A stretch of 20,716 nt of DNA, from IMG/VR virus record IMGVR_UViG_3300046697_000153, positions 1 through 20,716 of that record; one strand, given 5' to 3'. Position numbers and translations under genes: made by a program. Below the pieces are notes generated by a model. It made no database searches and was not told the DNA's origin. It saw only the letters and a program-made list of their open reading frames with translations. This DNA is from a virus. Positions 1,731-16,728 of the stretch are shown here, piece after piece; the stretch's first letter is position 1, and each line of letters starts with the position of its first letter.

Positions 1731-1731
1731 C

Positions 1732-3155: not shown

Positions 3156-3214
3156 CGAATGTGTTATGTTAATTCCTCCTTTTAAGATTTGGTTCCGATA
3201 GGAAACATTTGATT

Positions 3215-3510: not shown

Positions 3511-3550
3511 GCTGAGAGTCTACTAATCGAATCACGCTCCCTTAGAGTTA

Positions 3551-3562: not shown

Positions 3563-3589
3563 GTCATGTAAGATTTAGCGTGAAGCACC

Positions 3590-4084: not shown

Positions 4085-4154
4085 AAACTCCCCTGAGCAG
4101 TTCGTTATTCCAAATGTGGCGGGGATTAATGTATCTGCAAACCTTGTTACTCTA

Positions 4155-5144: not shown

Positions 5145-5261
5145 TTTTATTCCTTGATTCTAAAAGGCAAAGCGGTCGCCGGTAACTAAACCAAACCGGA
5201 GATGAAAACAGTCTGGTTTCTTCCGAGGTAGTAACTCATTGGTGAAAAAATGGGTTTTCCT

Positions 5262-5843
5262 TTATTTAATCGCGTCACCGGCGATTTCCGCGCCTTTCTT
5301 TTCCAGATGGCAGCGCCGCTCTCTCCACACTCGCTCTGTCCTGAGGTAGCCAGTTCTTTCGAGGGTGGCTACTCGATAATAAAACGTGGGAAATCTATCT
5401 TTGCCGGCATTTACGGCAGCACTAATCCATGGTTCTGAATACCCTATTTTAATCGCTATTTTAGAATACTGTGGCTTCCCTTTCAAGAGCCAATACTTGT
5501 AAACCGCGTTCTCGACTTCAATTTGGTCAACATCCTCTCGTTGCGAGAGTTCTGTTAATCTCATCTCTTGAGCGGTTACTCTATCGACATCATACACGCG
5601 AACCTTGAGCAACCCTTCGTTGCCTATCAGTTCACGTTCCGCCCTCCATCGCCGTTCCCCATTGATGATCTCGTAGTGGCTGTTGTCACTTGGGCGCACG
5701 ACGATTTCTTCCATGAGATCGATCGATTTGATAGATTCTGCTAGTTCCTTCAATCGTTCTTGATTGAAGGTTTTTCTTGGATTGTCTTCAGATGGTTTAA
5801 TCTGATCAATCCTTACTTCCTTCAGTTCGTATTTTGTTGTCAT
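5262..5843 (-). CDS. ParB/Srx-like protein
   Basis: A 193-residue protein with an N-terminal ParB-type domain. Residues about 9-25 contain the SEDNPRKTF box and the later INGERRWRAERELIG matches the GERR(Y/W)RA motif of ParB and related nucleotide-binding or nuclease proteins. A predicted helix-turn-helix follows (YSKIAIKIGYSEPWISAAVN). A short Arg/Lys-rich tail replaces the usual dimerisation domain, so it is shorter than chromosomal ParB (about 280). The start is ATG 5841-5843 behind GGGAGGTCCAGGAAAC. In-frame ATGs further upstream overlap the preceding gene and lack support. No parA is visible, so the role may be regulation or DNA modification support rather than partition. Confidence 0.82.
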   Translation of the reverse strand: MTTKYELKEVRIDQIKPSEDNPRKTFNQERLKELAESIKSIDLMEEIVVRPSDNSHYEIINGERRWRAERELIGNEGLLKVRVYDVDRVTAQEMRLTELSQREDVDQIEVENAVYKYWLLKGKPQYSKIAIKIGYSEPWISAAVNAGKDRFPTFYYRVATLERTGYLRTERVWRERRCHLEKKGAEIAGDAIK

Positions 5844-5865
5844 GTTTCCTGGACCTCCCATCTTC

Positions 5866-6273
5866 TTACTCCTTAGATTCCCATTGGAACCACTTTTCTG
5901 CATCATCCTGATACAGAATCCCCCGCTTAATCTGTCGAGGGATTTCTTTGTATGCTTCGGATTCCCAACCTCTAACTCTCATGTGCGCCGGATTTACACA
6001 GTTGCGCTTTCCACAAACCATCGTAATCTGTTTCGATGGAAGGAAACCGTACTCTATTAGATACATTAGCCGCTTAACCAAAACGAGGTGCGGTTTGTTA
6101 TCCGTGACTTCACCCGGCGCTAGTCGAATAAATCGGTTGGTGTTTACCGGCTCCCGCAGAATCCAATCGTTAGGAGACGGACATCCGATCGCTCGGCTTT
6201 TTACCTTTTGGAGAATCTCTCTCCGATGTTCCGGGACTTCTGCCGCTTCCGACAGTTTTAATATTTTAGTCAC
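5866..6273 (-). CDS. HNH-type zinc-finger protein, putative endonuclease
   Basis: Encodes 135 residues. The core is MVCGKRNCVNPAHMRVRGW at about 85-103, matching the C-x4-C-x-N-P-x-H signature of HNH homing or phage endonucleases. The first histidine of the motif is not obvious, so activity is uncertain. The N-terminal part (SEAAEVPEHRREILQKVKS) may be a DNA-binding helix pair. The start is GTG (6271-6273), about 27 nt downstream of a TATA-like box and with no ribosome site, which suggests a leaderless transcript. HNH proteins often sit near terminase genes and can assist packaging. It is the first gene of the leftward block. Confidence 0.7.
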   Translation of the reverse strand: MTKILKLSEAAEVPEHRREILQKVKSRAIGCPSPNDWILREPVNTNRFIRLAPGEVTDNKPHLVLVKRLMYLIEYGFLPSKQITMVCGKRNCVNPAHMRVRGWESEAYKEIPRQIKRGILYQDDAEKWFQWESKE

Positions 6274-6294
6274 ACTTTAAGATATGCATAATAA

Positions 6295-6306
6295 TACTTA
6301 AAAGTA
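6295..6306 (-). promoter_or_regulatory. TATA-like box of HNH gene
   Basis: The minus strand reads TACTTTTAAGTA, a perfect 12-bp palindrome apart from its centre, centred about 27 nt upstream of the GTG start at 6273. This spacing fits an archaeal TATA box driving a leaderless mRNA. Confidence 0.4.
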
Positions 6307-6310
6307 TCAC

Positions 6311-6328
6311 AAGTTACGCTAGTTACGC
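6311..6328 (+). promoter_or_regulatory. Operator-like tandem 9-bp repeat (site 1)
   Basis: The sequence is AAGTTACGC followed directly by TAGTTACGC, two 9-mers differing at one position. It abuts the rightward TATA box at 6330-6337, where TFB would bind, and lies just upstream of the leftward TATA box at 6295-6306. A protein bound here could control both directions. Confidence 0.55.
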
Positions 6329-6329
6329 T

Positions 6330-6337
6330 TTTATAAA
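6330..6337 (+). promoter_or_regulatory. TATA-like box, rightward
   Basis: TTTATAAA matches the archaeal TATA consensus. The predicted start near 6357-6362 would place the hairpin at 6341-6362 around the transcription start and leave a leader of about 50 nt before the micro-ORF at 6411. The box is symmetrical, so direction is inferred from context. Confidence 0.4.
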
Positions 6338-6340
6338 TCA

Positions 6341-6362
6341 CCCCGAACGAAAAAGCGTCGGG
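6341..6362. other. Hairpin in control region
   Basis: CCCGAACG and CGTCGGG can pair into a 7-bp stem with one bulged A and an AAAAAG loop. It is the most GC-rich stretch of the control region. No T-run follows directly on the plus strand, so a terminator role is not supported in that direction. It may be an RNA leader structure or a protein-binding palindrome. Confidence 0.35.
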
Positions 6363-6410
6363 TAGAATCATACTATAATCTAATCTTTAAAAAAAAGTAG
6401 GTGAGTCATC

Positions 6411-6500
6411 ATGTGCTGTATGTATATAAATACCTTTTACGTATCAGCAGTTGATAGGTTAAATCAATTTTTGAGAATCAGGAATAATATATTAGCGTAA
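6411..6500 (+). CDS. Possible 29-aa micro-ORF
   Basis: ATG at 6411 is preceded by GTAGGTGAGTCATC, a good ribosome site at normal spacing. The frame encodes MCCMYINTFYVSAVDRLNQF then LRIRNNILA. Its stop overlaps the second operator-like site, and its coding sequence contains a TATA-like box (6421-6431). It has no recognisable family. It could be a real regulatory peptide, a leader peptide, or chance. Confidence 0.3.
   Translation: MCCMYINTFYVSAVDRLNQFLRIRNNILA
6421..6431 (+). promoter_or_regulatory. TATA-like box inside micro-ORF
   Basis: TGTATATAAAT is a strong TATA-like string. It would direct transcription from about 6450, ahead of the second operator-like site at 6495-6512. Position and direction are uncertain. 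Confidence 0.25.
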
Positions 6501-6512
6501 CTTGCGTAAGTT
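6495..6512 (-). promoter_or_regulatory. Operator-like tandem 9-bp repeat (site 2)
   Basis: The minus strand reads AACTTACGC then AAGTTACGC, two adjacent 9-mers, one identical to the first 9-mer of site 1. The site is in the opposite orientation, about 165 bp away. Two copies of the same unusual arrangement in one intergenic region argue for binding by one regulator, possibly with looping. Confidence 0.5.
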
Positions 6513-6560
6513 GTAAACCTTTCACTATACCTAGTCGAACTTCTGCGTGGTGTTTCAGCT

Positions 6561-6662
6561 ATGATTATGGCGAAACAGTTGATTTCTACTGAGGAAGTCC
6601 CTGAAAAGCTGTCGTGGGTGGCACGAATTAAGCTATTTCTAGGATTTAAAGGTCGTGAGTAA
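6561..6662 (+). CDS. Possible 33-aa basic micro-ORF
   Basis: ATG at 6561 opens a frame for MIMAKQLISTEEVPEKLSWV then ARIKLFLGFKGRE. A weak ribosome site (TGGTG) lies 8 nt upstream. The peptide has a plausible amphipathic basic C-terminal helix. Protein-like composition is the only support; no family is recognised. Confidence 0.3.
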   Translation: MIMAKQLISTEEVPEKLSWVARIKLFLGFKGRE

Positions 6663-6702
6663 CTTCTTTTTAATGCCTAACGCATTTACCCCTACTTTGT
6701 AG

Positions 6703-6731
6703 GTAGTATAACCACCTTGCGAGCATACTAC
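6703..6731. repeat. 7-bp inverted repeat upstream of rightward promoter
   Basis: GTAGTAT and ATACTAC are separated by 15 nt, immediately upstream of the TATA-like box at 6746. The position fits an activator or repressor site. It could also be a weak hairpin from an upstream transcript. Confidence 0.3.
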
Positions 6732-6745
6732 TAGTCCTATAATAA

Positions 6746-6754
6746 CTATAAATA
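6746..6754 (+). promoter_or_regulatory. TATA-like box of small-gene operon
   Basis: CTATAAATA lies 48 nt before the first gene's ATG at 6802. The predicted start near 6776-6782 leaves a short leader that contains the ribosome site GAGGTGA (6789-6795). It probably drives the rightward block of small genes. Confidence 0.5.
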
Positions 6755-6801
6755 CTATTGGTGCTATTATAATCTTGTAGGAAACTACGAGGTGAAACAA
6801 A

Positions 6802-7011
6802 ATGTCAGCAACATCTAAATGGATTGCCTTTGTAAATTTCTCAGAGGCGTTTATGTATTACGTAATAATGCCAGCAGTCGTTATCGGCCTTATGGTAGTG
6901 TTTATACCAATCGGAATAATAGCATTAATCGTTTGGTTAATACTCGTTTATCGTCGTCGGGCCGGTGGAGCTGCACGAAAGGCGCGGGATCAAGAACTGT
7001 TGAAAGGCTAA
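6802..7011 (+). CDS. Small membrane protein, 69 aa
   Basis: First gene of the rightward operon, with ribosome site GAGGTGAAACAAA. Residues 18-51 are almost entirely hydrophobic (YYVIMPAVVIGLMVVFIPIG onward), enough for one long span or two tight spans. They are followed by a strongly basic tail (YRRRAGGAARKARDQELLKG) that should lie in the cytoplasm. No family is recognised. A role at the host membrane early in infection is inferred from position only. Confidence 0.65.
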   Translation: MSATSKWIAFVNFSEAFMYYVIMPAVVIGLMVVFIPIGIIALIVWLILVYRRRAGGAARKARDQELLKG

Positions 7012-7031
7012 GGTTAGAAGGAGTTAAAACA

Positions 7032-7169
7032 GTGACTGAATATAAATCAATTAATGTCAAAGATAAAACACATGCACGGTTGCGAGAACTAGGAAGGATG
7101 AATGAGTCGTTTGACGACCTCATAAATCGTATAATCGAAGGATACATCGCGTTCTATCAGGGTGAGTAA
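7032..7169 (+). CDS. Ribbon-helix-helix protein, VapB/DUF7557-like
   Basis: A 45-residue protein from GTG 7032-7034 behind AGAAGGAGTTAAAACA. It reads as a strand KSINVKDKTHARL, then a helix ELGRMNESFDDL and a helix INRIIEGYIAFY. This is the pattern of archaeal VapB-type antitoxins and DUF7557 proteins (strand, then 'LxELGxxxESFDDLIxRII'). No toxin is adjacent, so it more likely acts as a stand-alone DNA-binding regulator. The frame is open further upstream, but that part overlaps the preceding gene in another frame and lacks a ribosome site. It is a candidate binder of the nearby operator-like repeats. Confidence 0.7.
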   Translation: MTEYKSINVKDKTHARLRELGRMNESFDDLINRIIEGYIAFYQGE

Positions 7170-7181
7170 AGAGGGTGAAAA

Positions 7182-7322
7182 ATGATAATTGCCGAAGACA
7201 TACAAGAAATGTTAGACGAGTGTGGAGCTATAGAAACTGCAGTTAAAAAACTTAAAGACAGATTACTTGAAGAATACGCCGAGATGGTGGAGGTCGCAGA
7301 CGCGGCTAATCCTGAGTGGTAA
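7182..7322 (+). CDS. Small acidic helical protein, 46 aa
   Basis: ATG at 7182 follows GAGGGTGAAAA, the standard ribosome site of this operon. The protein (MIIAEDIQEMLDECGAIETA then VKKLKDRLLEEYAEMVEV and on to PEW) is almost wholly helical and acidic, with heptad-like spacing of Leu, Ile and Val that suggests a short coiled coil or dimer. No family is recognised. It follows the ribbon-helix-helix gene by 12 nt. Confidence 0.6.
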   Translation: MIIAEDIQEMLDECGAIETAVKKLKDRLLEEYAEMVEVADAANPEW

Positions 7323-7372
7323 TAGATAGGTAATGATAAAGTAACAAAAGTAACGAAAAAGGAGGCTGAAAA

Positions 7373-7507
7373 ATGACTTGCTATAAAAAGATGTGTGGCG
7401 TTCCTAGCTCATATAAATACAAAAAGGAGTGCGTGATGGGTGTTTCAAAAGATGAAAAGATAGCGTTTCGTGATTGTGGGTATTGTCCAGTTAAACGTTT
7501 GATTTGA
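7373..7507 (+). CDS. Small Cys-rich protein, 44 aa
   Basis: The ribosome site AAAGGAGGCTGAAAA precedes ATG 7373. Cys residues at 3, 8, 20, 35 and 38, with a final CGYC knuckle, suggest a metal-binding fold. The rest is Lys-rich. The 50-nt gap before it holds a tandem AAGTAACAA/AAGTAACGA. No family is recognised. Confidence 0.6.
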   Translation: MTCYKKMCGVPSSYKYKKECVMGVSKDEKIAFRDCGYCPVKRLI

Positions 7508-7527
7508 ATAAGAAAAGGAGGTGAAAA

Positions 7528-7692
7528 ATGACTACTATATTAACACTAAACGGGGAAACTGAAAGACTTTGGCGCGCAATTAAAAAGAATTGGCGTATTA
7601 GTGAACCAGATAGCACTGATGATTATATCCTACTTACACTATTCGGAATGTGGATTGATGAATTTGAGCCAGGTATTGAAAAAAGAGGGTGA
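7528..7692 (+). CDS. Small protein, 54 aa
   Basis: The ribosome site AAAAGGAGGTGAAAA is one of the best in the window. The protein starts MTTILTLNGETERLWRAIKK, contains Trp-rich patches and an acidic middle (SEPDSTDDYILL), and ends EFEPGIEKRG. Its stop codon TGA lies in the ribosome site of the next gene (GAGGGTGAAAA). No family or fold is recognised. Confidence 0.6.
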   Translation: MTTILTLNGETERLWRAIKKNWRISEPDSTDDYILLTLFGMWIDEFEPGIEKRG

Positions 7693-7695
7693 AAA

Positions 7696-7875
7696 ATGAC
7701 TGAAATTTATACGGTTCTCTGTGGGTGTTGTGAGTCTTCCGAAATTGAAAAGATTGAGGTGGGAACCTACAAATTCCTGTGCCGGAAGAATGGGGATGAT
7801 AAAACACCTGAAGAGGTTGGCTATGAAGATAAAAACCACCGTTTTGGCTGCGATGATTTTGAGTTCAACTTGTGA
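7696..7875 (+). CDS. Small Cys-rich protein, 59 aa
   Basis: Starts 3 nt after the preceding stop, with its ribosome site inside that gene's end. The N-terminus MTEIYTVLCGCCESSEIEKI carries a C-x-C-C cluster. Further Cys lie at 29 (KFLCRKNG) and 52 (FGCDDFEF), and a His at 48. The arrangement suggests a small zinc- or iron-binding domain, but no family is recognised. Confidence 0.6.
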   Translation: MTEIYTVLCGCCESSEIEKIEVGTYKFLCRKNGDDKTPEEVGYEDKNHRFGCDDFEFNL

Positions 7876-7885
7876 GGGCTGAAAA

Positions 7886-7972
7886 ATGATTGATGCAAAA
7901 ACGGTCGACTTGATTATTTTATACCTTCTTATGATGTGCGTAGCATTCGTTTTCTTGGCGTTGGTACGGTAG
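7886..7972 (+). CDS. Single-span membrane microprotein, 28 aa
   Basis: ATG 7886 follows GAGGGCTGAAAA, the operon's usual signal. The protein MIDAKTVDLIILYLLMMCVA then FVFLALVR is one membrane span with almost no other content. It is likely real because of its ribosome site and regular placement in the array. The role is unknown. Confidence 0.55.
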   Translation: MIDAKTVDLIILYLLMMCVAFVFLALVR

Positions 7973-7999
7973 TAGGCGGGGCTGAAAAGAGGGTGAAAA

Positions 8000-8185
8000 A
8001 TGACTGATAGTAGATGCAAATGTCTTAAAAATGTACCGTGGAGAGAGAGCTGTATTTATTGCGACCCCGACTTACGACAGTTTACACTAGAGGGGTATAA
8101 TGAAAGTATTGGTATAAAGAAGAAAAATGAGGTGAAAAGAAGAAATGAAAGCAACCTGTTGTGTGCAAGGACACTTAATAGATGA
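8000..8185 (+). CDS. Small Cys-rich basic protein, 61 aa
   Basis: GAGGGTGAAAA precedes ATG 8000. The N-terminal third (MTDSRCKCLKNVPWRESCIY then CDPDL) has a C-x-C plus C-x2-C pattern fitting one zinc site. The C-terminal part is Lys/Arg-rich and overlaps the next gene by 41 nt. Possibly nucleic-acid binding; no family is recognised. Confidence 0.55.
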   Translation: MTDSRCKCLKNVPWRESCIYCDPDLRQFTLEGYNESIGIKKKNEVKRRNESNLLCARTLNR

Positions 8186-8321
8186 GATGTTGGCGTGCGA
8201 TTGTGCCTCTCCGAGCGATTGTGAACATCAGCCGATTTGTGCAGCGATGAAGGCGCTCGAGGCGGCTGGTGTTAAGGAGAAAGGAATGTCCAAAAAGAAA
8301 GGAGGAACCACAAAGAAATGA
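8145..8321 (+). CDS. Small Cys-rich protein, 58 aa, overlapping
   Basis: ATG 8145 follows GAGGTGAAAAGAAGAA and lies inside the preceding gene in another frame. Cys at 5, 6, 18, 20, 26 and 32 form a dense cluster (ACDCASPSDCEHQPICAAM). The tail is Lys-rich. Its stop overlaps the next ATG as ATGA, so the two are coupled. The Cys cluster and coupling support it as a true gene. No family is recognised. Confidence 0.55.
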   Translation: MKATCCVQGHLIDEMLACDCASPSDCEHQPICAAMKALEAAGVKEKGMSKKKGGTTKK

Positions 8322-8638
8322 GTCTCAAGGATGAATTGAATACAGAATGTTTCGCATTTGAAAAACTAGCGGATGAACTTGAATCAGTCCTGGTGGATTT
8401 GCATAATGGGATTGATCCGACGCGCACACGCATACGGTTAAAAATCGTCTGCGCTGAACTACATCTGCAAAGAGAGCGCGTTGACCGGATGGTGAAAGAC
8501 GCAGAGGGCGCCGCACCCGCACCGGAACCAAAGATATCAACATTTAGCAGTGTGTTCCACGGGCCATTTCACGGGGAGGCCCAAGTCGATTTTTCAAAGC
8601 AGTTTGTTTACGATTCTGGTAAGGAGGATGATAGATAG
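8318..8638 (+). CDS. Unknown protein, 106 aa
   Basis: Starts by ATGA overlap and has AAAGGAGGAACCACAAAGAA upstream. Residues 1-63 form two long helices (FEKLADELESVLVDLHNG and RIRLKIVCAELHLQRERVDR) likely to pair as a helical hairpin. A Pro/Ala linker (GAAPAPEPK) leads to a Phe/His-containing tail (FHGPFHGEAQVDFSKQF). Its stop is directly followed by the protease ATG. It may be a partner of that protease, but nothing in the sequence proves it. Confidence 0.6.
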   Translation: MSLKDELNTECFAFEKLADELESVLVDLHNGIDPTRTRIRLKIVCAELHLQRERVDRMVKDAEGAAPAPEPKISTFSSVFHGPFHGEAQVDFSKQFVYDSGKEDDR

Positions 8639-9781
8639 ATGATAACCGTTACTAAGAAAGGTCACGGCCTGGGGTGGAAACCTCAGATGCCGTCACATTT
8701 AGATTACAGATACGAAGATCGCGTGAAGTTGATGGCACCTGAAACGTTGGTGCCAACGGACATAACCAATTTAGTCAGCACAGTCAAGAATCAAGGACAA
8801 CTAGGCGCGTGCGTAGCACACGGAACCACATCAGCCTTTGAGGCGTGTCAGATTAAGGCAGGAATCGAGGCAGTTCTAGGCTGCAGGCTACTGGTCTATC
8901 GCGATGCGAGGATTATTGGCGGCGATTATCCTGGAGATAATGGCTGTAATATCAGAGATGGTATTCACGCAACTGTTCAGGATGGCGTAGCACCTGAAAC
9001 TGATTGGGCTTATGATATAAGCCAGTTCGATACCGCACCGCCAGCGAAAGCAGTCAGCGACGCAGTGAAAGCCGAGTCTACGAGCTACTACTTGCTTGAC
9101 GGCGCCTCAACAACTCAGATGATTGCGAACATAGACAACTGCCTCTGCGTGACGAAGCTTCCAGTGGTTTACGGGATGCCAGTCTACCAGCAATACGAAG
9201 ACGTCGGCAGCGATGGGATCATTGATATGCCAAGCGGCGCATCAATCGGCGGTCACTGCAATGCGTTGTTTGGCGTAACTGGCTTTACTGACGCCGACTA
9301 CTACATCACCCTCAACTCTTGGGGGACAGGATGGGGCAAAGGATACGCCAAATTCAGTGGCGGCTTCGGTTTGATCCCGCGACCGTACATCCGGCAATAC
9401 GCGAGCGACAGTTGGACTATCGCGATGGAGAGTCAGCTTGGGCCGACACCCACCCCCACACCACCTACACCGACTAAGAAAGCGACCCAGATTACCATAA
9501 CCGCTGACAAGTCGTGTTACGGGGTCAATAAACCGGCGACGTTTATTGCCACATTAAAAAGTGGGACTGCTGCGCCTATTGCGGAGCCTATAAAGATTTA
9601 CCACACTCTTGGAGGTGCAACGTATCAGGACAAAGCAGCGTATTCAACGCTGACGTACCAAACGTCCTTCACGTCGCCAGGGATTCGCACCTACTATGCT
9701 TCGTTTGCAGGCAATGCTAGTTACGCGGCATCAGTTAGTTCAGCGTTACCGATCTGCGTATGCAGTGAAATAACCAAGTAG
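8639..9781 (+). CDS. Papain-family (C1) cysteine protease with Ig-like tail
   Basis: A 380-residue protein. The C1 peptidase core carries all catalytic residues: Gln52 and Cys58 in VKNQGQLGACVAHGT (six residues apart as in papain), His206 in IGGHCNALFGV, and Asn226 in TLNSWGTGWGKGYAKF. No signal peptide and no long propeptide is visible. A Thr/Pro linker (TPTPTPPTPTKK, about 270-281) leads to an Ig-like domain (282-380) ending ICVCSEITK, about 60% identical by eye to the tail of the glycosidase-like protein at 2124-3155. AAGGAGGATGATAGATAG precedes the ATG. It may digest host S-layer or envelope protein at entry or lysis, or process virion proteins. Confidence 0.88.
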   Translation: MITVTKKGHGLGWKPQMPSHLDYRYEDRVKLMAPETLVPTDITNLVSTVKNQGQLGACVAHGTTSAFEACQIKAGIEAVLGCRLLVYRDARIIGGDYPGDNGCNIRDGIHATVQDGVAPETDWAYDISQFDTAPPAKAVSDAVKAESTSYYLLDGASTTQMIANIDNCLCVTKLPVVYGMPVYQQYEDVGSDGIIDMPSGASIGGHCNALFGVTGFTDADYYITLNSWGTGWGKGYAKFSGGFGLIPRPYIRQYASDSWTIAMESQLGPTPTPTPPTPTKKATQITITADKSCYGVNKPATFIATLKSGTAAPIAEPIKIYHTLGGATYQDKAAYSTLTYQTSFTSPGIRTYYASFAGNASYAASVSSALPICVCSEITK

Positions 9782-9789
9782 TTTAAAAG
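9782..9789 (+). promoter_or_regulatory. TATA-like box before YkgJ-type gene
   Basis: TTTAAAAG starts two bases after the protease stop. The predicted start near 9808-9815 would give a short leader to ATG 9834, which lacks a ribosome site. Modest support. Confidence 0.3.
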
Positions 9790-9819
9790 GCGCGAGCGGT
9801 CGGGAGCCCGTTTGCGTTC

Positions 9820-9833
9820 CCTTTCTTTTTATT
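9820..9833 (+). terminator. Pyrimidine/T-rich tract, possible archaeal terminator
   Basis: CCCTTTCTTTTTAT lies after the protease gene and a short CGGG-AG-CCCG hairpin. Archaeal RNA polymerase can terminate at such T-rich tracts. It also immediately precedes the next ATG, so it may act only partially. Confidence 0.3.
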
Positions 9834-10220
9834 ATGGTAGAATACTCCGCTTGTGAAAATTGCTTCGGTGTCTGTTGTGCCGGTTTCTCAACGCCCTGCG
9901 CGTTAGGAACCGATGAGGTAGCACGGATCGCAGAATACCTAGAGATTCCCCTGGATGTCTTCAAGGAACTTTATGTTGTGAATGTTGAGATGTCTGAAGC
10001 GAAGCCGTGGACCTTCAAACAAGGAAAACCTTGCAGGTTTTGGACTCAAGGAAGATGCGGAATACACGCTGTTAAGCCTGAAGGGTGCGCCCTCTGGAAA
10101 CCTTACGGTAATAACGGAGAAGCATGCGGTAAGCATTTCAGAAAAGAGAGTGAAGAAGACAAGGCGTTTCCGTGGTGGGATTTGTTAAACCCAAAATGGA
10201 AACCGTGTCCTCCTCGATGA
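9834..10220 (+). CDS. YkgJ-family cysteine cluster protein
   Basis: A 128-residue protein with the family signature C-x2-C-x3-CC at residues 7-15 (SACENCFGVCCAG), then Cys22, Cys67 and Cys75 in PCRFWTQGRCGIH, and GCALWKPYG with Cys85, then Cys98. YkgJ-type proteins chelate zinc or an iron-sulfur cluster; their biochemical role is largely unsettled. It is the last gene of the rightward block and converges on the leftward gene ending at 10243, 22 nt away. The ATG lacks a ribosome site and may be read from its own promoter. Such genes are common in methanogens, so it may be host-derived. Confidence 0.8.
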   Translation: MVEYSACENCFGVCCAGFSTPCALGTDEVARIAEYLEIPLDVFKELYVVNVEMSEAKPWTFKQGKPCRFWTQGRCGIHAVKPEGCALWKPYGNNGEACGKHFRKESEEDKAFPWWDLLNPKWKPCPPR

Positions 10221-10242
10221 CTGCTGTCTCTGTTGCACTGCG

Positions 10243-10632
10243 TTAACGTTTCACTTTAGCATAATAAGACTGCGCTCGCCAATCTTCACAGAGAACATCC
10301 TTGATGCTCTGATAACGCCTGCGTAGGCAGTTGCGCGGGCGAGCGTGATACACGTCGTCTATTCTTGGACTGATCTCAGCGAGATCGTCCACGATTGTAA
10401 TAACCAACTGATGATTATGGTCTTTATAAGGATGATAAAGAAGATGCTCGTATTCTGACGTGAACTTGGTTTCGCTGCACTCCTGGACTTTCTTAGCTAG
10501 TTCGTGGCCGACCATCGCTTGCTTGATTCTTGCCAGTTTGATATTGATCCTGAAGCACTTGATTGCTTCTATAGGGCAAGACGAGACGGGTTTGCAGGGT
10601 TTGTAAGCCATCGGTCTGTTTAGTTTTGTCAC
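10243..10632 (-). CDS. Unknown basic protein, 122-129 aa
   Basis: The frame encodes 129 residues from a GTG at 10630-10632, or 122 from ATG 10609-10611. The GTG lies within AGGTGA, right behind a terminator T-run, so the internal ATG may be the true start. The protein is basic with Cys near the N-terminus (PCKPVSSCPIEAIKC), a strand HQLVITIVDDLAEI, and a C-terminal basic helix. No family is recognised. It is the last gene of the right-hand leftward block and lies behind an intrinsic-type terminator, so it probably has lower or separate expression. Confidence 0.5.
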   Translation of the reverse strand: MTKLNRPMAYKPCKPVSSCPIEAIKCFRINIKLARIKQAMVGHELAKKVQECSETKFTSEYEHLLYHPYKDHNHQLVITIVDDLAEISPRIDDVYHARPRNCLRRRYQSIKDVLCEDWRAQSYYAKVKR

Positions 10633-10633
10633 C

Positions 10634-10669
10634 TAAAAAAATAAAAAAGTAGACTATTTTTTAGTCTAC
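10634..10669 (-). terminator. Intrinsic-type terminator
   Basis: On the minus strand GTAGACTA and TAGTCTAC form a perfect 8-bp stem with an AAAAA loop. It is followed at once by TTTTTTATTTTTTT. The stem overlaps the stop codon of the two-TM gene. This is an unusually clean hairpin plus T-run. Confidence 0.8.
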
Positions 10670-10879
10670 TACTGGCACTTCCATCGTCGTGAAGAGCGTT
10701 ACGAGTCCTGCCAATACTGTTGCTATAAAGCCAACGAACGCAGCTTGCACCGTTGTTAAGACGAAATATTGACCTACTGAATTGACTGTAAACACTAAGA
10801 ATGTCAGAACTACGACTATCGCTGGAAGCCAGCCCATTCCTGTAGCTGGATCAAATACGATCTGTGTCTTGGTTGCCAT
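10661..10879 (-). CDS. Two-span membrane protein, holin-like
   Basis: A 72-residue protein starting at ATG 10877-10879, behind the ideal site GGAGGTGATAAAA; an in-frame ATG five codons earlier is part of that leader. Hydrophobic spans lie at about 18-38 (LPAIVVVLTFLVFTVNSVG) and 46-66 (AAFVGFIATVLAGLVTLF), joined by a short loop. Size and topology fit small viral holins that permeabilise the membrane at lysis, but there is no family-level match. It is bounded by terminators on both sides and shares its leader sequence with the histone-fold gene. Confidence 0.6.
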   Translation of the reverse strand: MATKTQIVFDPATGMGWLPAIVVVLTFLVFTVNSVGQYFVLTTVQAAFVGFIATVLAGLVTLFTTMEVPVVD

Positions 10880-10900
10880 TTTTATCACCTCCATTTAAAT
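10876..10900 (-). repeat. 25-nt duplicated leader, copy 1
   Basis: This segment matches 11108-11132 at 24 of 25 positions. It contains ATTTAAATGGAGGTGATAAA and the start ATGG. Both copies act as the ribosome-binding leader of small genes. Selection for high translation or a recent local duplication could explain it. Confidence 0.7.
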
Positions 10901-10923
10901 AAAAAAGAAGGGCGTTACCCCTC
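10899..10923 (-). terminator. Intrinsic-type terminator after histone-fold gene
   Basis: On the minus strand GAGGGG and CCCTTC pair around a TAACG loop (one G-U pair) and are followed by TTTTTTATT. The stem overlaps the stop codon. The stem is weaker than the one at 10649-10669, so it may attenuate rather than stop transcription. Confidence 0.55.
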
Positions 10924-11111
10924 TAAGCTGTAGGTACATCTTCAGGTTCTACCCGCGTGCGTCCTGCGGCTTGCATTGCTGCAACTGCAGCCTGGGCGAG
11001 TGCAACCTGCTTGTTGATTAACACCTCGATCGCAGCTTTAGCAGCTGCTTCCGAGACTTGTGTCGCGCCAGCGGTCTTGCAGGCTACGCGAAAGGCTTCT
11101 TCACTAACCAT
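10923..11111 (-). CDS. Archaeal-type histone-fold protein
   Basis: A 62-residue protein from ATG 11109-11111 behind GGAGGTGATAAAG. It aligns without gaps to archaeal histones such as HMfB from about residue 8: AGATQVSEAAAKAAIEVL against the AGAERVSDDA region, a central helix ending in AAVAAMQAAGRTRVEPEDV against the ARHAGRKTIKAEDI region. Conserved are the AGA-xx-VS turn, AGR, and the acid pair ED. It ends at PTA, just into helix 3, so it is shorter than most archaeal histones (66-70). The Arg at the first DNA-contact loop is Gln and the Thr in the second is Arg. It likely binds or compacts viral or host DNA, or is packaged. It lies between the transporter and the two-TM gene. Confidence 0.8.
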   Translation of the reverse strand: MVSEEAFRVACKTAGATQVSEAAAKAAIEVLINKQVALAQAAVAAMQAAGRTRVEPEDVPTA

Positions 11112-11132
11112 CTTTATCACCTCCATTTAAAT
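11108..11132 (-). repeat. 25-nt duplicated leader, copy 2
   Basis: Partner of 10876-10900, differing only at the base before the start codon. Here it overlaps the region just after the transporter stop. Confidence 0.7.
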
Positions 11133-11133
11133 C

Positions 11134-11631
11134 TCACATTGAAACTCCTAAGACTAGCCGCAGTCCGTATGCAAGCAAAAATGCTATTGCGGCAATCCCA
11201 AATGATAATGTGATTCGCTTCGGAAACTCTTTCCAAAAATACCTATCTTCAGGCTTCGTGATATATATTGTGAATCCGACGACGATGGTAAACGCAATAG
11301 CTAGTGTGCAGGTGAGTGCCGCTACGTAGCTCTGCAGCAATAAAAAGGGAATAATAAGGGCCATCGCGATCCCGAAATACAGGAGGCCGGTTCGTATGGA
11401 TGCGCCTGCAGGACTTTTAACGTTTTTATCGAAGACTTCTTCAGTCTCTTTTTCGAGGTATTCGCTTGCCGCCATGCTCAACGATCCAGCTAGGCCTGTA
11501 ATGAGTGCTGCTAAGGCTACAAGTCTAGCGTTTTGCAGGGCAATAGTCAAGCCTGCTATCGCTGCAGTAACCTCAACGAGGGAGTCATTAACACCCATCG
11601 TCATCGCGCCTAAATAGCGAGTGTCAGTCAT
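11134..11631 (-). CDS. VIT1/CCC1-family iron/manganese transporter
   Basis: A 165-residue membrane protein with five predicted spans (about 15-33, 36-57, 78-98, 102-124, 138-162), the number usual for the VIT family. The N-terminal signature is intact: GVNDSLVEVTAAIAGLTIAL with Asp16 in the first span, and GLAGSLSMAASEYLEKETEE with Met53 in the second. Equivalent Asp and Met residues line the metal path in VIT1. The cytosolic loop between spans 2 and 3 is short. Family members export Fe(II) or Mn(II) from the cytosol. The start overlaps the DUF1003 stop by 8 nt, so the two are coupled. A metal exporter is unexpected in a viral late operon and suggests capture from a host. Confidence 0.85.
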   Translation of the reverse strand: MTDTRYLGAMTMGVNDSLVEVTAAIAGLTIALQNARLVALAALITGLAGSLSMAASEYLEKETEEVFDKNVKSPAGASIRTGLLYFGIAMALIIPFLLLQSYVAALTCTLAIAFTIVVGFTIYITKPEDRYFWKEFPKRITLSFGIAAIAFLLAYGLRLVLGVSM

Positions 11632-12058
11632 GTTTGCACAACTCGAGTAACAGTTTCGTCTGCTTTAACAGCTCATCATCCTGCGCGGACAAGTGCTTGC
11701 CAGTCTCTTCTATGTCATGGTAGGTCTTCTGCGTGGTCTTGAACTGTTCGTCTGCCTGCATCTCTGACTTTCGGCCGAGGATGTTTTGACCGACCATGAT
11801 GATCGGCAGGATGGTAAGCGAAAGGAACGAAGATGTGAGCCACATTATGATCCAATACAACGTGTTCGGGAGCCATCCAAGTATCGCACCTAAACCGATA
11901 AAACAAATTACCGTGAACAGGTAGGCCGTCCACATAGAACCTACGTGCTGCGTAAGCCAAACAGCCAATTTCGCGTTAAAGCCTATCTGCTCGCTTGTGA
12001 AACGGTCATTTGAGTTAACGGGTTTGTGCGGATGCAGTTTATGTTTATAAAGTGCCAT
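11624..12058 (-). CDS. DUF1003 membrane protein
   Basis: A 144-residue protein. After a basic, His-containing N-terminus come two spans, about 42-62 (SMWTAYLFTVICFIGLGAIL) and 67-89 (LYWIIMWLTSSFLSLTILPI). Then the DUF1003 hallmark IIMVGQNILGRKSEMQADEQF and a coiled-coil tail to residue 142. The family is widespread in bacteria and archaea and of unknown function. AGGGGAACCA precedes the ATG. Its overlap with the VIT transporter gene suggests they act together at the membrane. Confidence 0.75.
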   Translation of the reverse strand: MALYKHKLHPHKPVNSNDRFTSEQIGFNAKLAVWLTQHVGSMWTAYLFTVICFIGLGAILGWLPNTLYWIIMWLTSSFLSLTILPIIMVGQNILGRKSEMQADEQFKTTQKTYHDIEETGKHLSAQDDELLKQTKLLLELCKHD

Positions 12059-12066
12059 TGGTTCCC

Positions 12067-12576
12067 CTATCTAACGAAATGTGCATACCCGAACAGGATA
12101 GATAATGCGACCGTGACAACGAATGAAACCACGAGTCCGATAACATATTGCTGGTTCCTTATCTTGTCCTTTCGTGTATCGTCTTTAAGTGCGTCAATCC
12201 GAACGGTGCATGCGTCTTTTACTTCGAGGATGAGTTCTCGCAGCGTTGTCATTCGGTTGCTCTGCTCAGTCATTACGTCTTTTAAAGTGGCAACGTCATC
12301 GATCAATCCGATGATCTGCTCTCCCCTTTTAGCTTGGCCAACTTCCAGTTTACCAGTGCGCTTTTCAATGCCCTCTGAACGGTCCCACCGATAACTGCCG
12401 TTCAGCTGTCGCCGGTCAGTAGGAACCGCCCGGTCGAGGTCATATAGCGCTTGATCGCAAGCGTTCTTAACCTTCTCTCGCGCAGTCTCGGCAGCTGAAA
12501 TCATCTCTTCTTTAGCTACTTTGGCCGCAGCAAGCAGTTCCTCGGCTGCCGTCGTTTCACTTTTTGTTGGGGTCAT
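12067..12576 (-). CDS. Coiled-coil protein with C-terminal membrane span
   Basis: A 169-residue protein. Residues 8-50 and 76-138 are helical with heptad-like patterns (AAEELLAAAKVAKEEMISAA; GLIDDVATLKDVMTEQSNRM). A basic stretch (DDTRKDKIRNQQ) precedes a membrane span at about 145-165. The soluble part is probably cytoplasmic. Its N-terminal Ala/Glu-rich helix resembles the upstream 79-residue protein, which it overlaps by 20 nt. No family is recognised. A membrane-tethered rod could link the virion or packaging to the envelope; this is inference. Confidence 0.6.
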   Translation of the reverse strand: MTPTKSETTAAEELLAAAKVAKEEMISAAETAREKVKNACDQALYDLDRAVPTDRRQLNGSYRWDRSEGIEKRTGKLEVGQAKRGEQIIGLIDDVATLKDVMTEQSNRMTTLRELILEVKDACTVRIDALKDDTRKDKIRNQQYVIGLVVSFVVTVALSILFGYAHFVR

Positions 12577-12796
12577 CTCGTGATCTCTCTAGCTTTAAGC
12601 GTTCAGCTTCAGCTACGGCCGCCTCATGAAGCAGCTCTTTCGCTCTCTCGACTGCTTCCGCAATAAGCAGCATGGCGCGAGTAGCTGCATCATCTATTAA
12701 GTCTCGCGCCGACGCTGCAGCAGATTCAATCAAACCTTCTGCCTTTATTCGAGCTTCTTCGTGTTCTTGTTCCTGTTCTAGTTTATCTTCGGTCAT
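12557..12796 (-). CDS. Ala/Glu-rich coiled-coil protein, 79 aa
   Basis: GGCGGTGAAAAA precedes the ATG at 12794-12796. The whole protein is a single charged helix (for example EEARIKAEGLIESAAASARD and AVERAKELLHEAAVAEAERL) with a heptad-like repeat. It likely forms a coiled coil with itself or with the downstream coiled-coil protein. No family is recognised. Confidence 0.6.
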   Translation of the reverse strand: MTEDKLEQEQEHEEARIKAEGLIESAAASARDLIDDAATRAMLLIAEAVERAKELLHEAAVAEAERLKLERSRDDPNKK

Positions 12797-12800
12797 TTTT

Positions 12801-13073
12801 TCACCGCCCTATACGCTTGTGCTTTAGATGATATCCGCGTCTATACGGCATGACCCTTTTGATCTTATATCCGCGCTTGTGGACGTAAGCTTTATGCTTA
12901 ATTCCGGTTCTATATGGCGCAATTCGTTTAATATGATATCCACGGCGATGTACATAACTTTTATGGGGGTGGTGCGCCTTCGGTCGTACTCCTCGAGCAC
13001 CGGGTCTAGCTGCGTGACTGCCTGCGTGAGGATGGCGAATACCCTTTTTATGAACATAAACACCGCGAGGGAT
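12801..13073 (-). CDS. Basic His/Arg/Tyr-rich repeat protein, non-standard start
   Basis: This frame encodes about 90 residues dominated by Lys, Arg, His, Tyr and Gly. Its C-terminal half is built of related units: YVHRRGYHIKRIAPYRTG, then YVHKRGYKIKRVMPYRRG, then YHLKHKR. Similar very basic repeat proteins occur among archaeal virus virion proteins and may bind DNA. There is no ATG, GTG or TTG. AGGAGG (13083-13088) stands 9 nt before an ATC at 13071-13073. The frame stays open and basic (IKRKRWFRRRYK) back to 13124, so the start could be further upstream. Another frame here (12824-13063) has an ATG but no repeats and no ribosome site. The stop lies in the ribosome site of the next gene. Confidence 0.6.
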   Translation of the reverse strand: MPRGVYVHKKGIRHPHAGSHAARPGARGVRPKAHHPHKSYVHRRGYHIKRIAPYRTGIKHKAYVHKRGYKIKRVMPYRRGYHLKHKRIGR

Positions 13074-13098
13074 TTTATAACGCCTCCTAAACCATCGT

Positions 13099-14667
13099 TT
13101 ACGCTTGATACGAGTTGTAAAGGTTTAGCGAAAGGCCGCTAAGAGTGGCCCCGTTTAGGATAATGTCCTTTGAGCCGGTTCCTCCGGATGCGTCATACAT
13201 ATCGTTACCAACCGCTCGCGTGTCTTGCACTGCGTTACTTGAAATGCCGATTCCATATTTCGTGTATGGCGCGTTAGCAGTCCACCCATAGTTTCCAATT
13301 AAAGACGTAGATCTGATACCTGTACCTATCAAGTTTATACACGACGGAGAACCAGTGGCAGCCATTCCGCATTGTCCGATCTCGTTGTTACTGATCATGT
13401 TATACCATCCTACAATGGCACCTGCTGCAGTCCCGTCAACCAGTATACCGTGCAACCCGCAATACGTTACGAGGTTTCCTGAAAACTTGTTGGCTTGAGC
13501 ACCACTTGTGGCTGTCGCAGCAAGGTGTATCCCGCAGTCGCCACAGTTTGAGATCTTGTTGTCAGCAACGATTCCGAGACTGCCCTGATAATAGATACCG
13601 TCGGCGTATGCGTAGGTTATTGTGCAGTCCTTGATTACTACATTGCTCGTTGCGCCACTTGTCACGTCAATGCCGTAATCCTGCGCCCCGGTGATGGTTA
13701 AGTTGAGGAGTTGCACGCTACCAGTCGTGACAAGAACGCCTTGATTGCCAAGTCCGGTAGTGACCGGCGTTGTGGTGTAGATACTTGACGTACTACCACC
13801 ACCAAAGAGTGCCATGTCGCGGATCGTCGCACCCGCATAACCAGCTACTATCATCGGAGTTCCTGCTGGAGCGCGGCCCGACAAGGTGATCGTGGTTTGT
13901 GATCCGCAGCCGATGAGGTTCGCACCCATCACTGGACTGATACTGTCCGAGATGATGCAGTCGCCCTCACTGAGCATGACCGTTCCACCACATGCCGGTA
14001 GTACTGAAAAGGCTTCGTTTATGATCTCGTCTGCATCTATAAATCCTGCAGATGCGGGAATCTGAAAGTCGGCATTTTGCTTCATAGTGGAACGAGCATT
14101 AGGCATCGCCACGACTACCGAGTTGCTTTGCGTCGCCTGTACGCCGACGAAGTTTCGTAGGTCAACGATATCCGTGTCCACAATCGTCGTATGTCCGTTA
14201 ACCATATTGACCTGAGCGAGGGGGAGTTGCCATCTGACGCCCTCTGTTTGAACTGGTTGCGGCGGCATTGGGTTGCCGGATCGCGGGTCAGTTGATGGAT
14301 ACTGTAGACCGTTAGTTCCTTGTACTACTATCGCGGTGATCCCTGCGTTTAATCCCCACTTGCATTCGAGCGCTATTAGGTCAGCGCGAATGCCGGACGC
14401 CAGGTTCGCGTTAAGCGTAAGCGTGTTCGTCGCATTATTTTGATAATAATGCCCCTGGATGGCCGCTGCACCCGTGTCGATATCCACTGTCAATGGCAGC
14501 GTGCCTGCAGTTACTTCCAACTCCCCCAGGTTATCGTTGAAGCTTACCGACATAACGCCGGTTCCTATCAAGTATCGGCTGAATTGAGCCCATTGGTTCT
14601 CGGTCAATGTGGCACCGAAAGGGTTAGTATCTCCTGGCTTTCTGAACGGATACGAAGTTTCGACCAT
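13099..14667 (-). CDS. Beta-helix receptor-binding / tail spike protein
   Basis: A 522-residue protein. Residues about 15-170 resemble the virion-attachment domain of many phage baseplate and fibre proteins (PFGATLTENQWAQFSRYLIG; ADLIALECKWGLNAGITAIV; VVQGTNG). From about 210 onward, repeated short strands with Asn and Gly turns (TIRDMALFGGG, NLTITGAQDYGIDVTSG, VIKDCTITYAYADGIYYQG, NKISNCGDCGIHLAA) form a right-handed parallel beta-helix of the pectate-lyase type, common in spikes that bind or cleave glycans. No catalytic triad can be assigned. CAGGAGAAAACACAA precedes the ATG. Confidence 0.75.
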   Translation of the reverse strand: MVETSYPFRKPGDTNPFGATLTENQWAQFSRYLIGTGVMSVSFNDNLGELEVTAGTLPLTVDIDTGAAAIQGHYYQNNATNTLTLNANLASGIRADLIALECKWGLNAGITAIVVQGTNGLQYPSTDPRSGNPMPPQPVQTEGVRWQLPLAQVNMVNGHTTIVDTDIVDLRNFVGVQATQSNSVVVAMPNARSTMKQNADFQIPASAGFIDADEIINEAFSVLPACGGTVMLSEGDCIISDSISPVMGANLIGCGSQTTITLSGRAPAGTPMIVAGYAGATIRDMALFGGGSTSSIYTTTPVTTGLGNQGVLVTTGSVQLLNLTITGAQDYGIDVTSGATSNVVIKDCTITYAYADGIYYQGSLGIVADNKISNCGDCGIHLAATATSGAQANKFSGNLVTYCGLHGILVDGTAAGAIVGWYNMISNNEIGQCGMAATGSPSCINLIGTGIRSTSLIGNYGWTANAPYTKYGIGISSNAVQDTRAVGNDMYDASGGTGSKDIILNGATLSGLSLNLYNSYQA

Positions 14668-14682
14668 TTGTGTTTTCTCCTG

Positions 14683-15201
14683 TTACGCAACTTTTCTGGC
14701 TATCGGCATCTTCTTATGATCCATTAATGCGACTGTGAGTCCTGCTGCTTGCGGAACGGGTACTGGCAATACCGGCGTGAGCGAGACGTCAGGCGGTTCG
14801 TACCCTGCTGCAGTCTGCGCGATTGTAGGCAGTGGGTTCTTTGCACCCCAATCGACTGACAGTGCATTAGACCATTTGGTAGTCCTCCAAGCCGGAGTAG
14901 TTGTGACGCTGGCGGCGCTGGCGGGGGTTGTAGTAGTAGTACTTAGGGGGGCAGTTGTTGACGTCTTTGTTGTCGTTGCCGCAATCGACTTCTGGATCGC
15001 TGCGAAGACATCGTTCTCAGCATTGCCGCCGCAACTCGTGACGTGCGAGCCGTCGCAAAGCACCGCGCAGGGATAGCACTGGCAGGCCTGGGACATATCA
15101 ACAGTGTATTTGATTTGGGCGTTATTGAGCATTGATTCTAAGTTCGCGCAATGAGGACATCCTGACAAGGTTATTATCGTAGGTGTACAAGCTTGTGCCA
15201 T
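14683..15201 (-). CDS. Glutaredoxin-like virion-operon protein with Thr-rich linker
   Basis: A 172-residue protein from ATG 15199-15201 behind GAGGTAATTGAAA. Residues 8-75 match a glutaredoxin fold: a strand then the redox motif SGCPHCANLE (Cys15, Cys18), a second strand KYTVDMSQ, then YPCAVLCDGSHVTSCGG, which corresponds to the cis-Pro strand and the glycine-rich turn of glutaredoxins. Several additional Cys lie nearby. Residues about 84-115 are a Thr/Ser/Ala-rich linker, and the rest (KWSNALSVDWGAKNPLPTIA on) is an unknown Pro-rich domain. It sits directly between tail genes. It may exchange disulfides in virion proteins or at the host surface. Confidence 0.7.
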   Translation of the reverse strand: MAQACTPTIITLSGCPHCANLESMLNNAQIKYTVDMSQACQCYPCAVLCDGSHVTSCGGNAENDVFAAIQKSIAATTTKTSTTAPLSTTTTTPASAASVTTTPAWRTTKWSNALSVDWGAKNPLPTIAQTAAGYEPPDVSLTPVLPVPVPQAAGLTVALMDHKKMPIARKVA

Positions 15202-15212
15202 TTTCAATTACC

Positions 15213-16250
15213 TCATACGAAGCAGACGCTATAACTTCTTTTCTCAGCCGTGTCGCTTCCGACCGAGAATGCGAAATCACCGTTCTTGTCCGGCCAAATC
15301 TTTCCAAGCGACCACGTTTTTTTTGCATTGCTCGTCCAAATTTCAAGCTGGCCTGTATATGGTTTACCGTGTATCCAGTTCTCGTTATTATCCACCCATC
15401 CGGCGCGACCAGTGATTTGCACTTTAAATTCAATGTGCTGTGAAACGTCACTAGCTGATGATCCCACGAATGCAATCGAAATGTGCTTGCAGGGACACTG
15501 AATGACTGCTTTCGTTGCCGCTGTTGTTGCCGCCGCTGTTGCTGTAGCCCCAGCAGTTCCACCAGTTGCCCCTGTTTTTGTTGCTCCGTAATGACTGATT
15601 AACTGTTGCGCTAGTGACACAATACTCGATGATGAAGCACTATAACCCCCCCAAAAACAAATCGTGTCGCATCCAGTCGAATCAACGACGTTTATATACG
15701 TCTGAGCGCCGACGCCTTGCATCCAGTTACCGATAAGGATTCCGAGGTGTCCCGCGCCAGCTGATCTGGACCAGCCGATTGATTGGCTCGGGTCAACGTA
15801 ATTGTCGCTGTTGTCGTAAGATTCAATATAATCCCAATGCCCTTTTCCACCGCCCGTCGGGTGATCCCACGGGTCGGCGTACATATCTGCCTGACTATTT
15901 CCAACAATGCCGCCGTAATTAACATACGTGCAATAGTTCTGAACGGTGGAAACTACAGAGCCGCCGCAACCCTCACCTGCAATACAGTTCCAACCGGCGC
16001 TCGCAAGAGCTTGGAAGTATCCTGCATACGGACCACCGGCAGCGCCTGGTTGACACACCGCTGCGCTGCCATCATTGAACGCATTGAATGTGGCTGTAGG
16101 GATTCCTGCGTTGTGTATGGCACTTGCAGTACCAGCAGCCGTAGTACTACCATCCCAGTCCCAGACTAACCCGGCTTCCGCAAATCCTACTGATGCCAAC
16201 CAACTGAGGTTATCTAACGAACCAAAGTGCGCGCAAAAGCGTTTTCCCAT
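15213..16250 (-). CDS. Glycosidase-like protein, paralogue of the 2124-3155 protein
   Basis: A 345-residue protein. Residues 1-222 align with the catalytic-type domain of the protein at 2124-3155: AGEGCGG with Glu93, YVNYGG, HPTGGGKGHWDYIESYD with Glu143, LGILIGNWM, and TICFWGGY. The two shared glutamates are candidate acid/base and nucleophile residues of a TIM-barrel hydrolase. An Ala/Thr/Gly-rich linker (about 225-247) leads to a beta-rich C-terminal domain (IQCPCKHISIAFVGSSASDV on to YSVCFV), different from the Ig-like tail of its paralogue. GGTGGGG lies 8 nt before the ATG. Being inside the tail operon, it is likely a virion-bound enzyme or adhesin. Confidence 0.6.
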   Translation of the reverse strand: MGKRFCAHFGSLDNLSWLASVGFAEAGLVWDWDGSTTAAGTASAIHNAGIPTATFNAFNDGSAAVCQPGAAGGPYAGYFQALASAGWNCIAGEGCGGSVVSTVQNYCTYVNYGGIVGNSQADMYADPWDHPTGGGKGHWDYIESYDNSDNYVDPSQSIGWSRSAGAGHLGILIGNWMQGVGAQTYINVVDSTGCDTICFWGGYSASSSSIVSLAQQLISHYGATKTGATGGTAGATATAAATTAATKAVIQCPCKHISIAFVGSSASDVSQHIEFKVQITGRAGWVDNNENWIHGKPYTGQLEIWTSNAKKTWSLGKIWPDKNGDFAFSVGSDTAEKRSYSVCFV

Positions 16251-16721
16251 TTATAGTACCCCACCGATAATAACTGTCCACCCTCCCCACGCGCCGGTGC
16301 CGGATGCTGGATACCACATCCAACCTACTGCTCCGTCCATATCTCGCGCAAATATCCGAATGACGTCGGGTGATGCATTAGCGTCGTAGATAACGGTTGG
16401 GCCGCTAGATGCGGCTATTCCCATGCTTGCTACTGATGTCCATCCTGTGCCGTTAACGTTCTTTGTCATGCGTATTATATTATCCGTTCCAGTGTAAAAA
16501 AGCCAAAAAGTCCCGGTTCCGTTGCCGCACGCCCCTGGCGAAGTTCCCGGCAGTGCGTCAATCTGGTTCTGTTGGTTGGCTTGTGTCTCAAGAACCCCAC
16601 TTGAACCATTCACCGCTGCCGTGTTATTCAATGTGGCATTGATGGCACTAAGATTTGCACTGTGGTCGATTAGGTTCTGTGCCACGGCAGTTTTATAATC
16701 CGTATCGCTTGCGTTTAACAT
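16251..16721 (-). CDS. Small tail protein with beta-propeller-like repeats
   Basis: A 156-residue protein. The first 60 residues are helical and Asn/Gln-rich (LIDHSANLSAINATLNN), perhaps a trimeric stalk. The remainder has blade-like repeats (FWLFYTGTDNIIRMTKNVNG, then GWTSVASMG; VIRIFARDMDGAVGWMWYPA, then GAWGGWTVIIGG). These resemble PLL-like lectin or sialidase-type beta-propeller blades. Only about two blades are present, so assembly by oligomerisation would be needed. AGGAGAGTT precedes the ATG. A glycan-binding tail tip or fibre protein is likely. Confidence 0.5.
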   Translation of the reverse strand: MLNASDTDYKTAVAQNLIDHSANLSAINATLNNTAAVNGSSGVLETQANQQNQIDALPGTSPGACGNGTGTFWLFYTGTDNIIRMTKNVNGTGWTSVASMGIAASSGPTVIYDANASPDVIRIFARDMDGAVGWMWYPASGTGAWGGWTVIIGGVL

Positions 16722-16728
16722 AACTCTC

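Follow-up and report, generated by a model that had tools for sequence, protein, structure and literature searches.

A family of HMf-type histone-fold proteins in tailed archaeal viruses with an altered dimer-dimer interface

Here, we describe h1, an archaeal (HMf-type) histone-fold protein encoded by a tailed virus, and a family of related viral histones, in which the interface used for stacking of histone dimers is largely lost. The DNA analysed is a 20.7-kb IMG/VR virus record, taken at its full length of 20,716 nucleotides and referred to as the window. The loss of the stacking parts, together with the presence of the same type of gene in sister viruses, suggests that the virus probably uses its histone to block or loosen chromatin and not to build it. 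Our tentative reading of the sequence comparisons, to which we give close to an even chance, is that h1 acts inside the infected cell as a viral histone of a capstone-like, non-polymerising kind. Known before were the viral histones of eukaryotic viruses and one proposed 'phage histone' category for tailed prokaryotic viruses; the open-access literature that we searched contained no description of HMf-type histones from viruses of archaea.

Results

The h1 gene codes for a protein with an archaeal histone fold

The h1 gene is located at positions 10923-11111 on the minus strand and codes for a protein of 62 amino acids (MVSEEAFRVACKTAGATQVSEAAAKAAIEVLINKQVALAQAAVAAMQAAGRTRVEPEDVPTA), followed by a stop codon. 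The leader GGAGGTGATAAAG, which contains a Shine-Dalgarno sequence, lies directly 5' of the start codon (11112-11124, minus strand), and a nearly identical leader precedes the next gene. An alternative in-frame ATG is present 15 nt upstream of the ATG at 11111; GGAGGTGAT is ideally spaced for the ATG at 11111. Just past the stop codon, a terminator-like stem-loop with a T-run is found by consensus match only (10906-10924, minus strand), and a search of the DNA against Rfam gave no match.

The initial annotation had assigned this open reading frame to the archaeal histone-fold proteins, and this assignment is confirmed, with a homology beyond chance. The NCBIfam model for archaeal histones, NF043032, matches h1 over positions 10-60 of 60 with an E-value of 2.4e-5 and 24.6 bits, which falls below the curated cut-off of 50 bits. 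On a hidden Markov model built from cellular archaeal histones only, h1 scores 38.4 bits, compared with a maximum of 12.6 bits in 5,000 shuffles. A phmmer comparison with solved archaeal histones gave E-values of 8.8e-4 for HPhA and 0.09 for HMfA, and the only Pfam model to match was that of the TAF histone fold (0.06). With an archaeal-derived pattern, 53 relatives were confirmed among 84,980 prokaryotic genomes scanned, all of them archaeal (best match 49% identity, 7e-7). When a profile of the viral histones was compared with the PDB, archaeal histones ranked first (2.9e-6), and the closest sequences are archaeal and not of the eukaryotic core-histone type. The previously described gap-free alignment to HMfB-type histones is seen from the N-terminus through D58.

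Structure prediction, which had been proposed as a check and was run on the monomer with AlphaFold2, gave a confident histone fold for h1 (pLDDT 94.7), with helix 1 at residues 4-13, helix 2 at 21-48 and helix 3 at 56-58; a second viral allele is predicted to adopt the same fold (pLDDT 95.7). Helix 2 is thus 28 residues long in the models, and helix 3 comprises three residues, or one turn. The top Foldseek matches in the PDB are archaeal and eukaryotic histones, including HMfA and HPhA (TM 0.75-0.82, probability 1.00); the E-values, from 0.045 upwards, are weak, which is to be expected with such a short protein.

The viral histones form a conserved family under purifying selection

Profile scans of IMG/VR viral contigs yielded 14 records including the window, with eight distinct proteins of 61-62 amino acids; every family protein except h1 carries a C-terminal D[ILM]GE motif. 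Taken singly, some of the other viral alleles barely exceed shuffles on the cellular-only model and are linked through the family, and a search for the viral histone in isolated phage genomes gave no match. Positions 8131-20716 of the window are 99.5% identical to a 67.9-kb record, G002. This record encodes terminase, portal, protease, major capsid, tape-measure and tail proteins, so that the virus is a tailed one; the viral origin claimed for the region is supported. It also carries a second histone, h2, which is 39% identical to h1 (L003:16407-16589, minus strand), and one of its two histones lies outside the late gene cluster. In addition, G002 encodes a Ku protein (L008:13287-14078; Pfam Ku 2e-43), which suggests that the joining or the protection of ends is a virus-encoded function. 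Positions 1-8130 of the window differ from G002, the exceptions being about 420 bp at 2023-2441 and, near 6 kb, 0.4 kb of diverged sequence, and this divergence amid near-identity shows strong mosaicism in the virus group.

The viral histones are a conserved family under purifying selection and not a one-off: where dS could be estimated, dN was well below dS (0.033 and 0.145 for the h2 pair, 0.22 and 1.0 for L107-L104). That h1 is a passenger, namely a host gene fragment without a selected function, is in our view very improbable. A neighbouring DUF1003 gene does resemble genes of the candidate host order described below, and the h1 copies are identical in three records, but the eight distinct viral alleles have a constant length and a low dN/dS. 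Moreover, h1 is at most 35-37% identical to the two host-order histones compared and is therefore not a recent copy. In a phylogenetic tree, viral and cellular sequences are split (support 100/98) and h1 sits on a long branch between the two groups, so that the tree does not distinguish one capture from two. We favour a single origin of the viral histones, to which the shared N-terminus, M46, A48 and the Q18/R53 pair point.

h1 is located in an accessory cassette at the end of the tail-gene cluster

The h1 gene lies downstream of the tail genes in a DUF1003-VIT1-histone cassette. The cassette contains a VIT1-like membrane protein of 165 amino acids (11134-11631, minus strand; Pfam VIT1 1.4e-10) and a DUF1003 membrane protein (11624-12058, minus strand; 51% identical to host-order proteins), and its upstream border is formed by a membrane-anchored coiled-coil protein, which is encoded where the tail-gene cluster ends (12067-12576, minus strand). 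The cellular matches of the VIT1-like protein, which belongs to an iron/manganese transporter family and is paired with DUF1003 beside the histone (11134-12058), are in frames of about 300 amino acids. The slot is marked by the gene for a small transmembrane protein (10661-10876, minus strand), which is kept in G006, a related 66.9-kb virus that has h2 but lacks the cassette, including the VIT1-like gene at this place. In L096 and L107, a different histone allele occupies the slot of h1, ahead of the same membrane gene. The other copies are found in different surroundings: h2 precedes a gene with an Ig-like domain, and histone copies of the L104, L108 and L110 type are followed at a short distance by a papain-like peptidase gene. 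The earlier placement of h1 in a 'virion operon' holds in so far as the tail-gene cluster has h1 at its 3' end; with a cassette that is missing in G006 and sister histones that are mostly elsewhere, the slot is accessory and not core virion.

This position could suggest that h1 is packaged in or on the virion, where it would condense the encapsidated genome, a role that histones have in Marseilleviridae and that the initial annotation had put forward for h1. We regard such a role as improbable, though not quite as improbable as a passenger gene, since this is a terminase-packaged tailed virus and the protein is nearly neutral. Packaging by terminase and portal is expected to strip DNA-bound protein, several lysines and arginines of the DNA ridge are lost, the cassette is missing in one relative and most sister copies are outside the slot.

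Several other features of the viral genes were noted. The tail cluster codes for a tail-module protein (18307-20613) that has a thioredoxin-like CPPC motif as well as a DnaJ-type zinc-binding match, the latter weak, and for a small protein (14683-15207) whose CPHC motif is glutaredoxin-like. Ig-like Big_3_5 domains are present on three viral proteins (2124-3155, 8639-9781 and 18307-20613), one of which is a papain-family protease, and two of the copies share 71% DNA identity over 119 bp.

Residues of the dimer-dimer interface and of the DNA-contact loops are changed in the viral proteins

Six viral alleles were compared with 51 cellular homologues, using HMfB numbering. An arginine is found at position 19 in all 51 cellular sequences, a conservation that is inflated because this set was picked by a pattern over the loop-1 region allowing R, K or Q at 19, whereas the viral alleles have Q (five) or K (one); a further viral allele, L106, has H. 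Positions 46-56 were not part of the selection. Here, position 54 is T in 51/51 cellular proteins and R (four), K (one) or T (one) in the viral alleles. In h1, these two sites correspond to the Gln of codon 18 in loop 1 (11058-11060) and the Arg of codon 53 in loop 2 (10953-10955), both on the minus strand and placed by alignment. The swaps at viral residues 18 and 53, Q/R, Q/K or K/T in place of R/T, are a family trait, and one basic residue stays at the L1-L2 site. Position 53 is K or R in 51/51 cellular sequences but V, T or I in the viral ones, position 56 is K in 47/51 as opposed to E (five) or L (one), and the R or K at position 10 of 49/51 cellular proteins is not conserved in the viral alleles. 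The minor-groove set of R10 and R19 with T54 is therefore not retained.

The changes at the dimer-dimer interface are equally consistent. The residue at position 46 is L, F, Y or V in 51/51 cellular sequences and R (five) or A (one) in the viral alleles, and position 49 is H in 49/51 cellular sequences and A in 6/6 viral ones; position 47 in between changes from A (51/51 cellular) to M (6/6 viral). In h1, the loss of L46 and H49 maps by alignment to codons 45-48 (A, M, Q, A; 10968-10979, minus strand). L46, H49, D59 and L62 make up the dimer-dimer interface, which is needed for hypernucleosomes (PMC6136690), and of this set the viral proteins retain D59 alone; the three-turn helix 3 is also absent. 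The viral chains end inside helix 3 at residue 61-62, compared with residue 64 or beyond for the cellular proteins. As cellular histones of ANME-1 and Methanosarcinales end just two residues past h1, length alone is not unique, and the truncation counts only together with the interface changes. The early end and the Gln-for-Arg and Arg-for-Thr swaps are all as they had first been described.

The R-D clamp, R52 and D59 (viral R51 and D58; codons 51-58 of h1, 10938-10961 on the minus strand, by alignment), is invariant in all viral and cellular sequences, so that R51 and D58 of the RxTxxxD motif are kept throughout and T53 in one of the six viral alleles. The helix-2 core contains F, M and often W in the viral proteins and L, L and mixed residues in the cellular ones, and the net charge of the viral histones is -1 to +2. 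The weak DNA ridge and the fact that histone folds serve non-DNA complexes such as TAFs would suit a function away from DNA, for example in a protein complex, viral or of the host, to which it would contribute one of the partner subunits. We consider this unlikely, as the clamp and the basic residue at the L1-L2 site are present in every allele compared.

The virus is linked to an archaeal host

The terminase ATPase of the window (432-1250, minus strand) is 50-53% identical to terminases in the archaeal genomes G424 and G463, while the best isolated phages reach 41-43%. One such terminase, L166, sits a few kb from genes for a proteasome subunit, a FEN1-like nuclease and a KH/beta-CASP protein, as read from the translations, and is therefore on an archaeal chromosome. 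The terminase large subunit of the viruses looks split into ATPase and nuclease genes (432-1250; L108:3772-4584 and 4597-5376), whereas its relatives in the genomes of the candidate host order are single proteins of 616-627 amino acids. A 36-bp stretch of the window (10202-10237) matches exactly inside a fasciclin-like gene in G470, G444, G434 and G454, with 44 bp at 95% in another genome. It lies at the 3' end of a CxxCxxCC-domain gene and may be captured host DNA or a recombination site; a CRISPR spacer is ruled out by the location inside the fasciclin-domain gene, and a tRNA att site by the absence of a tRNA there. The cassette DUF1003 gene shows 76-77% DNA identity over 95 bp to the same four genomes and about 51% identity as a protein.

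All matching genomes belong to one Halobacteriota order of seven genomes, six of which match the window. The terminase relatives and the 36-bp match thus bear out the archaeal host. This candidate host order, which might be Methanocellales/Methanoflorens of permafrost peat, carries three native full-length histones. A scan of genome contigs for the major capsid protein gave no match. Relatives of this protein do occur on Halobacteriota and Thermoproteota contigs, but the stretches read there contain no histone, and these relatives do not outscore the capsids of bacterial phages; the host is therefore not settled by the capsid protein. A scan with TerS found no relatives, and a search for the VIT gene in four host-order genomes gave no match.

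Discussion

The viral proteins share with the nucleosomal HMf/HTk-type histones (HMfA, HMfB, HPhA) the gap-free alignment, a full-length helix 2, the AGAxxVS loop 1, the R-D clamp and the fold, but they lack L46, H49, R10, K53, K56 and the end of helix 3, have the R19/T54 pair replaced and are without the LPxAP N-terminus. Archaeal capstones such as Msp_0383 and Msm_1260 are recognised by their residue 49, which is either hydrophobic or negative (PMC7776873), and the Ala 49 of all six viral alleles corresponds to this non-His, hydrophobic marker of an unstable dimer-dimer interface. Capstones are, however, host-encoded, whereas the viral proteins are virus-encoded and have in addition a cut helix 3 and DNA-contact changes. 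Bd0055 (HBb), with the equivalent residues A48, S45 and I61, forms no tetramer and does not wrap DNA, and wrapping is restored by A48H/S45F/I61L (PMC10627809). It resembles the viral proteins in its Ala at the His position, a non-hydrophobic residue 45, a one-turn helix 3 and the lack of a sprocket arginine, but its helix 2 is one turn shorter. Given these published roles of L46/H49, residue 49 and the Bd0055 residues, the viral proteins appear to carry the signature of non-polymerising histones.

Other histone classes are more distant. Alpha3 histones have a helix 3 of 3-4 residues, which is matched by viral residues 56-58, but their helix 2 is 4-5 residues shorter; membership is ruled out by the full-length, gap-free viral helix 2. 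The phage histones, an alpha3 category (Schwab 2024, PMC11390915), are also small histone folds in tailed prokaryotic viruses, but they add a C-terminal helical tetramerisation domain and lack RxTxxxD. The proteins described here end with the fold and keep the R and D, and membership is ruled out by the missing C-terminal domain. The histones of giant viruses (Marseilleviridae, Medusavirus) are virus-encoded as well and account for the named histone matches in the viral structure library, but they are of the eukaryotic H2A/H2B/H3/H4 type, often doublets, with structural E-values of 0.17 or worse.

We propose that the viral histone would still form a histone-fold (handshake) dimer, but that such dimers would be unable to join into tetramers or hypernucleosomes. 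In the infected methanogen-type archaeon, it would most likely pair with host histones, of which the candidate host order offers three at full length, or sit on DNA as its own dimer, and as a capstone or poison subunit it could end or prevent hypernucleosome growth. DNA might thereby be kept accessible on viral templates and perhaps in host chromatin too, to the presumed benefit of the virus. Fold, homology, viral location, family-wide interface loss, purifying selection and the archaeal host link are supported computationally. The initial annotation had suggested capping of host histone multimers through the missing helix end; this end is missing family-wide and coupled to the loss of H49 and L46, which fits the idea, while the capping step itself we infer.

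Several observations speak against capping. The helix-2 core differences could favour homodimers over mixed dimers with histones of the host, and with R10, K53 and K56 lost and a near-neutral charge, the affinity for DNA may be low. FtF-type alpha3 histones tetramerise via another interface (PMC11390915, PMC12701072), and by analogy the viral histones might do likewise. In addition, the cassette copy is dispensable in one relative. A less likely but serious alternative is a viral nucleoid protein, modelled on HBb/Bd0055 in Bdellovibrio (PMC10627809), whose homodimers would bind the intracellular viral DNA and either bend or coat it, protecting it or regulating transcription, and leave host chromatin untouched. 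The interface state is that of the non-wrapping Bd0055, the clamp and the L1-L2 basic residue are retained, and of the two copies in one virus, one is not part of the late gene cluster. The lost basic residues and the charge near zero argue against it, and with a full-length helix 2 unlike that of Bd0055, the end-on binding mode of the latter need not apply.

Returning to the non-polymerising, capstone-like histone, one might speculate further, with somewhat less confidence, that tailed archaeal viruses carry dedicated chromatin-breaking histones, sometimes two per virus, minimal histone folds which are selected to pair with host histones without offering a polymerisation surface, and that hypernucleosomes are thereby dismantled or capped upon infection. 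The family is also a source of small, naturally occurring histone variants, in which a compensating swap is present where loop 1 and loop 2 contact the DNA. With a viral family that has the fold but not the polymerisation surface, an old question can now be tested, namely whether archaeal hypernucleosomes restrict viruses and whether viruses counter this by histones of their own. If the viral histones do break chromatin in this way, they would be an archaeal anti-chromatin counterpart of the nucleoid-attacking phage proteins in bacteria.
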